A model generated the notes under the pieces. That model was not told the DNA's origin. It saw nothing but the letters and a program-made list of their open reading frames with translations, and did no database searches. A program made the translations under genes and the position numbers. Positions 7,307 to 10,204 of a stretch of DNA of 37,141 nucleotides are shown in pieces. The DNA comes from Halococcus salifodinae DSM 8989 (GTDB lineage: Archaea; Halobacteriota; Halobacteria; Halobacteriales; Halococcaceae). Numbering within the stretch: the first letter of the stretch is position 1; each line of letters begins with the position of its first letter. The stretch lies in contig NZ_AOME01000054.1 in assembly GCF_000336935.1 (NCBI RefSeq), forward strand, positions 69,628 to 106,768, in the 5' to 3' direction.

Positions 7307-7929
7307 GATTGGGTTCGTTCGTACCGCTCCTCTTCGGCGTGAGTCGTCCACTCCTCGCCGCGCGCGAGCGCGGTCTGTCCCGTCCGAGCGAGCTCGCGAA
7401 TCCCGAACTGCCGGAAGGCGTCGATCGCGTCGTCGATTTTCTGTTCGTCACCGGTGATCTGGACAGTAACGGTCCGTGGGCCGGCGTCGAGGGTGGTTCC
7501 GTCGTACATCTCGGTGACGGCATGGACCTTGTCGGGCTCCTCGCCGTGGACTTTCAGGACCACGAGCTCCCGGCGCACGGCGTCGTCGCCCAGCTCGCGC
7601 ACCGAGATCACGTTGATCACCTTGTCGAGCTGTTTTTCGACCTGGCGGACGCCGGGTTCTGGCTCCTCGATCACCAGCGTGACCCGGGAGGTCTCGGGGT
7701 TCGTGGTCGTGCCCACGGTCAGGGACTCGATGTTGAACTGCCGGCGCGAGACGAGCCCGGAGATCGTCGCCAGCACGCCCGGCTCGTTCTCGACCAGCGC
7801 CGAGATGACCGTGCGTCGCGACGCGGGCTCGGCCGCGACCGCCGGATCGATCCGGATGCCCTGGGCGTTGCGCCGGCCCGACGGCTGTGGTCGCTCGTCG
7901 GGAGCCGGTCCCTGGAGTCCTTCCGTCAT
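7303..7929 (-). CDS. ilvN: Acetolactate synthase small (regulatory) subunit
   Basis: Regulatory subunit that activates the catalytic IlvB subunit and gives it valine feedback inhibition. The ACT domain is clear near residue 38 ([20 protein letters not shown], then [16 protein letters not shown]), followed by the conserved [17 protein letters not shown] and a C-terminal ACT-like half ([16 protein letters not shown]). At 208 residues it is somewhat longer than bacterial versions because of a charged N-terminal extension of about 35 residues. Its ATG overlaps the ilvB stop and its stop overlaps the ilvC ATG, 4 nt each. Confidence 0.93.
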
Positions 7930-9770
7930 AGCTGATCCTCCGCGAGGACGAACTCGCCGTTCGCGCCACCGCTCGGCACCATCGGGTAGACGTTCTCGGT
8001 CGGATCGATATGAGCGTCGACGACCGACGGTCCGTCGTGCGCGAGCGCCTCGCTCACGACGTCCTCGACCTCGCCCTCGTCGTCGATGGTGTACCCGCGC
8101 GCGCCGAACGCCTCGGCGAGCGTCTCGAAGTCGGGCACCCACGGGTACTCCGAGGCCATCCGCCGGCCCTCGAAGAACCCGTCCTGCCACTGCCGCACCA
8201 TCCCGACCGCCTCGTTGTTCAGGACGAACACCGTGATGTCGAGGTTCTCCCTGACGGCGACCGCGAGCTCCTGAAGCGTCATCAAAAAGGAGCCGTCGCC
8301 GTCGAAACAGACCACCGACTGGTCGTCGTCGGCTGCGAAGCGCGCGCCGATAGCGGAGGGCAGCCCGTAGCCCATCGTCCCGAGACCGTGCGAGGAGACC
8401 CACGTCCGGGGCTCGGTGTACGTCCAGTACTGGACCGCCCACATCTGGTGCTGGCCGACACCCGTCGTCACGATCGTGTCGTCGGCCGTCGCCGCGTCCA
8501 CGGCCTCGACCACGAACTGTGGCTTTAGTGGTGCATCCGCCGGCGCAGCGTAGTCCATCGGGTACTCGTCCTTCCACATCAGGCACTGCTCGCGCCACTC
8601 CTGCCAGCGCTCGCCGGTCGCGGCCATGTCCGTGTCTCGCTCCTCGGCGAGCGCGGCGTGGACCTGCTCGATCACCGTGCCGGCGTCGCCGAGCAGCGGG
8701 TAGTCGGCGTGGACGTTCTTGCTGATCTCCGCGGGATCGATGTCGGCGTGGACGATCTCGGCCTCCGGGGCGAACGTCTCGACACCACCGGTCAGTCGAT
8801 CGTCGAAGCGGGTGCCGACCGCGAACATCGCGTCGCAGTGGGTGATCGCCATGTTCGCGTAGCCCGTGCCGTGCATTCCGGCCATCTCCATCGCGAGGTC
8901 GCGGTCTTCGGGGAACGCGCCGACTGCTGGCATCGTCGTCACCACGGGCACGCCGTACTCGGTGGCGAATTGCCGGAGGTCGTCGCACGCCTCGGCCTTG
9001 ATCACGCCGCCGCCAGCGAGGATCACGGGCCGCTCGGCGCTGGCGATCGCGTCTGCGGCCGTTTCGACCGCCTCCTCGTCGGCGCGTTCGGGCGGATCGT
9101 AGGTTTCCGGCGTTTTCCCCTCGTCTGGCTCACGGTCGGTCGCGCCGTTCGTCACGTCTTTCGGGAGGTCGACGAGCGTCGGCCCCTGGCGGCCCTCGTC
9201 AGCGAGCGCGAACGCCTCACCCACCGCGTCGCCCACGGTGTCGGCGTCGCTCGCGAAGTAGTTCTCCTTCGTCACGGGACTCGTGATCCCGGTGGTGTCG
9301 GCCTCCTGGAAGGCGTCCGAGCCAACCATCGCAGTCGGAACCTGACCCGTGAGCGCGATCATCGGGTCCGAGTCGAGCGAGGCGTCCGCGAGCCCGGTCA
9401 CGAGGTTCGTCGCCCCCGGTCCCGAGGTCGCGAGACAGACGCCGGGATCGCCCGAGACGATGCCGTAGGCGTCGGCGGCGTGGGCTGCACCCTGCTCATG
9501 GGCCATCGTGACGTGGTCCATCGCCGAGTCGTACAGCGCGTCGTACACCGGCATGATCGCGCCGCCCTGAACCCCGAAGAGATGCTCGACGCCGGCGGTT
9601 TCGAGCGCGCGCACGACCGACTCCGAGCCGGTCGTCACGGGCCGAGCACCTGCGTCCTCGGAGGACGCTTCTTCCGTGGGCGTCCCTTCGGCAGCCACCT
9701 CCTCGGCCGTCGCGGCTTCGGTGGCCGGCTCGTCCGCGTCGGGGCGGTGAGTCGGTTGCTGTTCGCTCAC
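7926..9770 (-). CDS. ilvB: Acetolactate synthase large (catalytic) subunit
   Basis: ThDP enzyme making acetolactate (valine, leucine) and acetohydroxybutyrate (isoleucine). Of 614 residues, the first 50 or so are an acidic Ala/Glu/Thr-rich extension. Then come SVVRALETAGVEHLFGVQGG and the ThDP-activating glutamate in MAHEQGAAHAADAYG. The ThDP/Mg2+ motif is GDGSFLMTLQELAVAV ending in FVLNNEAVGM. The start is GTG at 9770, supported by the purine-rich GGGGGGTG a few bases upstream, which fits a transcript with a long 5' leader rather than a leaderless one. It is the first full gene after the leader ORF at 9961-10044, and the downstream genes through leuB overlap in series. Confidence 0.95.
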   Translation of the reverse strand: MSEQQPTHRPDADEPATEAATAEEVAAEGTPTEEASSEDAGARPVTTGSESVVRALETAGVEHLFGVQGGAIMPVYDALYDSAMDHVTMAHEQGAAHAADAYGIVSGDPGVCLATSGPGATNLVTGLADASLDSDPMIALTGQVPTAMVGSDAFQEADTTGITSPVTKENYFASDADTVGDAVGEAFALADEGRQGPTLVDLPKDVTNGATDREPDEGKTPETYDPPERADEEAVETAADAIASAERPVILAGGGVIKAEACDDLRQFATEYGVPVVTTMPAVGAFPEDRDLAMEMAGMHGTGYANMAITHCDAMFAVGTRFDDRLTGGVETFAPEAEIVHADIDPAEISKNVHADYPLLGDAGTVIEQVHAALAEERDTDMAATGERWQEWREQCLMWKDEYPMDYAAPADAPLKPQFVVEAVDAATADDTIVTTGVGQHQMWAVQYWTYTEPRTWVSSHGLGTMGYGLPSAIGARFAADDDQSVVCFDGDGSFLMTLQELAVAVRENLDITVFVLNNEAVGMVRQWQDGFFEGRRMASEYPWVPDFETLAEAFGARGYTIDDEGEVEDVVSEALAHDGPSVVDAHIDPTENVYPMVPSGGANGEFVLAEDQL

Positions 9771-9951
9771 GGAACACCCCCCGTTCGCGGTGTGGGCGGT
9801 GAGCCGTGCATCCGTCGTGGGCGATACGTCTGGCGTGGTCGGGTCGGTCGTTGTTGTCGTGGTCGCTGTCGGTCGTGCATGGATCGCGTGTCGAGTGTCG
9901 CGCGTGCTGGTCGCTGTGTGGTCGGTGCAGCAGGGTCGGGGGAGAAGGTGG

Positions 9952-9973
9952 TGTAGGGGGCTACGCCCCTACA
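9952..9973 (-). promoter_or_regulatory. Hairpin overlapping the end of the ilvB leader ORF
   Basis: A perfect inverted repeat with 8-bp arms (minus strand: TGTAGGGG, loop CGTAGC, CCCCTACA). The 5' arm begins in the last base of the second Ile codon and covers the Val and Gly codons of the leader ORF; the loop holds the stop codon. A ribosome waiting on the ATT ATT GTA codons would therefore cover the 5' arm and block the hairpin. No T-run follows, so if it terminates transcription it is not by the simple oligo-T route. The remaining roughly 180 nt to ilvB is C/A-rich and shows no other strong stem. Confidence 0.6.
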
Positions 9974-10044
9974 ATAATCGACACACGCACGCCGACCGCG
10001 CCGCTCCGAGGCTGCGGCCCTCGTGCGACAGTCGATCGGAACAT
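9961..10044 (-). CDS. Putative ilvB operon leader peptide (27 aa)
   Basis: A 27-codon ORF beginning MFRSTVARGPQPRSGA and ending VGVRVSIIVGA, followed by TAG. Seven of the 27 residues are Val or Ile, six of them in the last eleven. The critical run is ATT ATT GTA, codons that are scarce in the surrounding genes, which prefer ATC and GTC/GTG. The ATG lies about 29 nt from the centre of a TATA box, as expected for a leaderless start, and about 190 nt before ilvB on the same strand. A perfect hairpin overlaps its stop codon. Together this resembles a ribosome-sensing leader of a branched-chain amino acid operon. An in-frame ATG at 10062 is possible but sits too close to the TATA box. That it is translated and regulatory is inference. 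Confidence 0.55.
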   Translation of the reverse strand: MFRSTVARGPQPRSGAVGVRVSIIVGA

Positions 10045-10068
10045 CGTATCCACATCCTCCATTCCGAC

Positions 10069-10076
10069 GGTAATAA
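10069..10076 (-). promoter_or_regulatory. TATA box for the ilvB operon leader
   Basis: Minus-strand TTATTAC preceded by purine-rich GCAAGGG (possible BRE). The spacing predicts a start near 10047, just before the leader ATG at 10044. It would give ilvB a 5' leader of about 275 nt separate from leuA. Bases 10077-10204 up to the leuA stop hold nothing else that I can identify. Confidence 0.55.
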
Positions 10077-10204
10077 CCCTTGCGTGCGCTGCAAGCGTTG
10101 CGCCGGCCGGGGTTCTGGCGAGGGCCGATCGCACTACCGTCTCCGCTCGCACGGGCTGGCGCTACCCGCCGGTGATGGGATGGAGCGTTCGAAGCGCGCA
10201 TGAT

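Follow-up and report, generated by a model that had tools for sequence, protein, structure and literature searches.

The question raised by this locus is what occupies the 434-nt gap between the end of leuA (10205) and the GTG start of ilvB (9770) on the minus strand of Halococcus salifodinae DSM 8989, and whether it controls the genes behind it. In the window, i.e., the whole 37,141-nt stretch of DNA that was analyzed, ilvB is followed by ilvN, ilvC, leuC, leuD, and leuB in that order. The ilv/leu operon which an earlier note had placed here was upheld, with ilvB, ilvC, and leuC supported by profiles (ilvC and leuC as NCBIfam equivalogs exceeding the cut-off) and the remaining genes by ORF order. 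The same note had proposed that ribosome occupancy at Ile and Val codons of a short leader ORF determines expression of the operon. The features concerned are collected in Table 1.

Table 1. Features of the leuA-ilvB gap and of ilvB (positions in the window)
Feature	Position	Strand	Basis or remark
TATA box GGTTATTACC, ilvB operon promoter	10069..10078	-	sequence
Leader ORF MFRSTVARGPQPRSGAVGVRVSIIVGA, 27 codons plus TAG	9961..10044	-	sequence; translation from leaderless mRNA expected
Intra-ORF hairpin, 5' arm after ATG (predicted, tentative)	9990..10044	-	RNAalifold by family
Segment immediately 5' of Ile codons, can pair with CAGCACGCGC (tentative)	9983..9991	-	partner-swap test
Sensing codons ATT ATT GTA (Ile-Ile-Val)	9970..9978	-	sequence; conserved in ilvB loci
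Hairpin UGUAGGGG-cguagc-CCCCUACA, putative terminator-like	9952..9973	-	5' arm on Val-Gly codons, stop codon in loop
Pyrimidine-rich stretch CCACCTTCTCCCCCGACCC, expected termination zone	9933..9951	-	alignment consensus CACCnCTTCC
CAGCACGCGC motif, possible partner of 9991-9983 (tentative)	9900..9909	-	pairing analysis
ilvB (acetolactate synthase large subunit), inferred first controlled gene	7926..9770	-	TIGR00118, E 4e-205

A ribosome-mediated attenuator of the trp/his/ilv type, known from amino-acid operons, would be expected to have a short leader ORF between the promoter and the first structural gene, codons cognate to the operon product (or to the synthetase encoded downstream) near the end of this ORF, and a hairpin able to form in the absence of ribosome occupancy. 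The first of these was found as described in the earlier note, since the TATA box and the 27-codon ORF starting near the expected transcription start matched to the base. Counted from the first T of the TATA box, the ATG (10044-10042) is 32 nt downstream, and most relatives have an in-frame ATG 29, 32, or 35 nt after TTAT. A second in-frame ATG is present at 10062, 18 nt upstream, but would lie ahead of the point where transcription is expected to begin. The TAG stop (9963-9961) is 190 nt ahead of the ilvB GTG, in keeping with the distance of about 190 nt given earlier.

The second expectation was also met, with Ile-Val codons for ilvB and, as described below, Val codons for valS and Phe codons for pheS. 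Six of the last 11 residues of the leader peptide are Val or Ile, as had been stated, and the ORF ends with the codons ATT ATT GTA GGG GCG. The claim that the ATT ATT GTA run is made of locally scarce codons was substantiated by the usage in 13 window genes, where ATT accounts for 4.2% of Ile codons and GTA for 2.4% of Val codons. The combined leader and hairpin pattern had zero chance matches in the shuffled window.

The third expectation is met by predicted folding and by conservation. The perfect 8-bp stem formed by UGUAGGGG and CCCCUACA, which had been reported with its 5' arm on the Val-Gly codons and the stop codon in its loop, was confirmed, with a predicted energy of −13.1 kcal/mol (z, −3.3) that none of 200 shuffles equaled. 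The earlier observation that no T-run follows was likewise correct. The U-run of a bacterial intrinsic terminator is absent, CCACCTTCTCCCCC being found directly after the hairpin and CACCnCTTCC being the consensus of relatives at this place. The composition from +27 to +120 is 40% C and 20% G.

According to the earlier note, a lack of conservation in related species would refute the proposal. BLAST with the leader peptide across the order gave true matches only within the genus, and the remainder was noise owing to N-terminal divergence; regions anchored on ilvB were therefore used, and the upstream regions of 111 leuA-ilvB loci from many haloarchaeal genera were read. AT(T/C)GTAGGGG followed by a loop and CCCC was present in 107 of the 111 loci, and the other four retained the GTA codon together with a stem of altered sequence. 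The GTA codon was present in all 111; it was preceded by an Ile codon in 108 (ATT in 90 and ATC in 18) and followed by GGG in 108 and by CGG in 3. In 101 loci, the distance from the first base of the Ile codon to that of the stop codon is 12 or 15 nt, while the leader as a whole ranges from 20 to 42 codons, mostly from 22 to 33. The ORF, its frame, its Ile-Val codons, and the stem were thus conserved across nearly the whole order. The strongest evidence came from the reading frame. ATGs with a TATA-like sequence 25 to 37 nt upstream were in frame with the sensing codons in 107 cases and out of frame in 6, which is taken as evidence that the ORF is translated and that the mRNA is nearly or wholly leaderless.

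The hairpin was the one constant structure in these loci, with a GGGG-to-CCCC spacing of 0 to 8 nt. Its pairing was retained despite varying loop length, register-shifted stems, and the divergent sequence of locus L371. The altered stems of the four loci mentioned above are those of L120 (GUACGGGCC/GGCCCGCAC), L140 and L146 (GGGCC/GGCCC), and L142 (GUAGU.GGGG/CCCC..ACUAC). The variants in L120, L140, L146, and L371 keep their pairing. The two central G-C pairs never vary, and the covariation support is accordingly modest. Outer stem pairs were lost in many families with GTA retained, which argues that GTA is conserved as a codon and not as part of the stem alone. GTAGGGG could in part be conserved as a nucleotide motif.

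The distribution of the element was determined with a covariance model of a 60-nt core, trained on 106 of the 111 sequences. The model matched 351 of the 392 genomes of the order, 322 of the 345 good ones, and 84 of the 95 genera. Training sequences match by construction, and most of the matched genomes were outside the training set. When 11 genomes without a match were read again, eight of them (families f2, f5, f12, and f13) had the leader in a form missed by the model or the filters, including MQSHTALPGSPVVSGVAVGIVGA, MAHTRMPRLACPASIAIVGA, and the A+T-rich MKAVVRTKNGLFVSCAAVQVSVGA, in which GGUGC/GCGCC replaces GGGGC/GCCCC. No leader was found in the other three (L374, L375, and L376, from families f9 and f11), where ilvB directly follows the upstream coding sequence without a gap; the ilvB genes of these three are more distant (54 to 56% identity). 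Outside the order, the other genomes drawn from the phylum gave no convincing match. A match in genome G513 (E 0.08) had neither a leader ORF nor an ilv gene adjoining and was treated as chance. A search of about 85,000 named genomes for the exact pattern gave 118 stretches, and 78 of the 80 matches listed were haloarchaeal. Of these 78, 72 share the strand of ilvB and lie less than 500 nt ahead of it, 5 lie just behind a same-strand leuA in fetched DNA that ends before ilvB, and 1 is flanked by leuA and a partial ilvB match. Neither of the bacterial matches had an ilv or leu gene nearby, and both were dismissed, about seven chance matches being expected by estimate. As judged by these sequence searches, the leader element is near-universal in one archaeal order and is found convincingly nowhere else in the phylum among the genomes drawn.

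Two further structures were considered. RNAalifold gave a hairpin within the ORF in several families, but it was not supported by partner swapping or covariation, and its fold z in the own sequence was only −1.6. A long-range helix between the segment preceding the Ile codons and CAGCACGCGC, 60 to 90 nt downstream, first looked general. The own partner was better than swapped partners in families f1 (p 0.0005) and f17 (p 0.02) and weakly so in f14 (p 0.07), with no such support in the other families, and these p values are weakened by the relatedness of the sequences. The helix was therefore not accepted as a general feature; as an antiterminator pairing, it is conserved in three families at most. 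The spacer from the hairpin to ilvB (9960-9771, minus strand) is C-rich and G-poor in relatives, and CAGCACGCGC and GTATCGCCC/GTATCGACC recur in it, the latter near the ilvB start.

Leaders before tRNA synthetase genes proved particularly informative. Second, weaker model matches in several genomes adjoin valS, and these leaders end in FVGAP (three cases), FVGAS, and RVGAS, so that GTA and the hairpin are kept and another codon stands in place of Ile. In other families, the valS leaders are short and have GTA GTA CGT at the end, examples being MTVVVRG, MRVVAVVRE, and MGHRFAAVVRA; this ending recurs in f1, f3, f8, and f12, and the identity of valine-tRNA ligase was confirmed for two loci. The own genome has a mini-leader of this type before valS (L205), MSVMSSVVRR, ending in GTA GTA CGT CGC TGA. 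For pheS, leaderless ORFs of 25 to 29 codons with Phe-rich ends were found in 14 of 26 loci (f1, f3, f6, f7, f8, and f10), and no leader was found in the other 12. Examples are MAAEPRVGRSGDRPPIATVAFGVRFFFAN (own genome) and MASEPHSRCPARKQQDGPGFGFFFAA, with ends such as GFGFFFAR and FGVRFFFAN, and the identity of pheS was confirmed. In the own genome (L164), MAAEPRVGRSGDRPPIATVAFGVRFFFAN and its stop codon come shortly past a TTTTTGCC box. Since the structures downstream of the pheS leaders differ, pheS and ilvB are deduced to share the leader logic and not the same hairpin. With simple filters, no convincing Ile, Trp, or Tyr leaders were found upstream of ileS and trpS/tyrS. Comparison of the loci supports a specificity that tracks the downstream gene, i.e., Ile-Val for ilvB, Val for valS, and Phe for pheS. 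Haloarchaeal uORFs before some of the same genes are on record, as a start-site map of Haloferax volcanii placed one of 26 codons before pheS and one of 23 codons before trpS, with mapped long 5'-UTRs (PMC4983044). They were entered as small proteins, and neither attenuation nor ilvB was mentioned. The 23-codon uORF belongs to the tryptophan-tRNA ligase HVO_A0127 (PMC4983044, Table 2); the trpS loci read here showed no Trp leader.

We consider it likely that the ilvB leader is a ribosome-mediated attenuator that senses Ile and Val. The ORF, its frame, the sensing codons, the hairpin, the link to the operon, and the change of codons with the gene are supported by comparison of sequences; the stalling, the hairpin-dependent termination, and the sign of control are inferred without expression data. 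Transcription would start at, or a few bases from, the leader ATG, and the 27-codon leader would be translated by ribosomes following RNA polymerase. With ample charged tRNA-Ile and tRNA-Val, the ribosome is expected to pass the Ile-Val codons and to depart after reaching the stop codon of the loop, whereupon the GGGG/CCCC hairpin could form and the transcript would end shortly after it, ahead of ilvB. With either tRNA uncharged, the ribosome would stall on ATT or GTA with its footprint over the 5' arm, the hairpin would not form, and the operon from ilvB to leuB would be transcribed. The stalled ribosome would thus block the hairpin directly, and a separate antiterminator would be unneeded. 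The ribosome-occupancy reading of the earlier note is supported by the conservation, by the valS leaders that keep Val and drop Ile, and by the Phe runs before pheS; its action on transcription is inferred, and so is the sign (on at starvation), which rests on what the genes do. Termination at hairpins has been reported for H. volcanii, where 503 termination sites were preceded by a hairpin at a distance of no more than 10 nt and a hairpin assayed in vivo stopped 59% of transcripts (PMC7237163). Coupled ribosomes may exclude termination by FttA/aCPSF1, with its RNA cleavage at 3' ends (PMC11616081, PMC8116511), and termination of this type could take part at the ilvB leader.

The same leader could sense Ile and Val and have another output, the position of the ribosome setting either mRNA cleavage or stability, or the translation of ilvB through long-range pairing. 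The missing U-run and the long C-rich spacer with its conserved CAGCACGCGC and GTATCGCCC would fit this, as would the 3'-end cleavage by FttA/aCPSF1, which may compete with coupled ribosomes (PMC11616081, PMC8116511). However, no consistent pairing with the start of ilvB was found across families, and only the short hairpin where the ORF ends is structurally constant. We regard such an output as unlikely, though it remains a serious possibility. It is very unlikely that the leader encodes a small trans-acting protein in place of sensing the position of the ribosome. Some bacterial leader peptides do act in trans (PMC7298713), and the C-terminal IVGA is conserved here, but the N-terminal part varies freely in peptides of 20 to 42 codons, and it is the codons that are conserved and not the residues alone.

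The palindromic form and the strong sequence conservation of the inverted repeat GTAGGGG..CCCCTAC would suit a DNA operator for a transcription factor, with the ORF then incidental. This was rejected as highly improbable on account of the variable spacing of 0 to 8 bases between GGGG and CCCC and the fixed frame of the ATG (107:6); moreover, the outer half-site bases are lost in many families while GTA stays, and the codon before GTA changes with the gene. A metabolite riboswitch, or a T-box-like RNA that binds tRNA directly, might be suspected from a structured, conserved 5' leader ahead of amino-acid and tRNA synthetase genes. It is hardly conceivable here, as the conservation is focused on the reading frame and a short hairpin and not on a large aptamer, and no Rfam covariance model matched at E ≤ 1 between positions 9600 and 10300. 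The ribosome-mediated attenuator remains the preferred explanation.

Amino-acid control by the translating ribosome is a textbook mechanism of bacteria. In the pheST attenuator of Escherichia coli, the leader peptide PheM ends in Phe codons before the Phe-tRNA synthetase gene. The haloarchaeal pheS loci are alike in having a synthetase gene behind a leader with terminal Phe codons and differ in that the leaders are leaderless, about 25 to 29 codons long, of the GFGFFF type at the end, and followed past the stop codon by variable structures. In E. coli pyrBI and tnaC, the ribosome stands at the stop codon or else close to or on the 5' arm, and by its presence obstructs either the terminator or the termination factor directly, no separate antiterminator being required; the signals are the UTP level and tryptophan-induced arrest, respectively, and termination involves a terminator with a U-run or Rho. 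The direct block proposed for haloarchaea resembles these two systems, whereas the signals and the type of terminator differ. The bacterial ilvB and ilvBN attenuators (E. coli ivbL; Corynebacterium ilvBNC, ilvB-II motif; PMC10272879) share with the haloarchaeal leader the type of operon, a short uORF, late branched-chain codons, and a hairpin after these codons. Judging only from the title of a reference in PMC10272879, the Corynebacterium ilvBNC leader is reportedly made without a ribosome binding site. Unlike these systems, the haloarchaeal leader has an archaeal promoter and ribosome, is unrelated in sequence, lacks a U-run and, as judged by partner swapping, a general antiterminator, carries the stop codon within the hairpin loop, and has a fixed rare Ile-Val codon pair instead of a branched-chain-rich run.

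In kind this would be ribosome-mediated attenuation. New features are its occurrence in another domain of life and its near-universality within one archaeal order, the leaderless start, a hairpin loop that carries the stop codon, and the absence of both a U-run and a general antiterminator. In a search of 5.4 million open papers, leader-peptide attenuation was described for bacteria only, and no established archaeal attenuator of the ilvB kind was found, as the earlier note had presumed. Priority is not proven, since subscription papers and supplements were outside this search. With good confidence, we propose a haloarchaeal class of ribosome-sensing leader attenuators (ilvB, valS, pheS, and probably others) as the first ribosome-mediated attenuation in Archaea. 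As part of the same proposal, its design would be minimal: a leaderless ORF in which rare sensing codons number one or a few, joined in the case of ilvB and of many valS genes by just one hairpin, whose loop contains the stop codon and which the stalled ribosome blocks directly. If this is true, the coupling of transcription and translation in archaea is tight enough for the ribosome to steer expression, the leaders offer a natural reporter both of this coupling and of archaeal termination, whether hairpin- or factor-dependent, and small uORFs hitherto entered only as small proteins are accounted for.

A minor observation concerns the DNA immediately upstream of the TATA box, where a conserved CAACGCTTGC-N7-GCAAG element was found (10100-10079, minus strand). 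Of 97 relatives, 22 have TTGC..GCA at this place, compared to 1.6 expected by shuffling, and the element may be an operator for some transcription factor.
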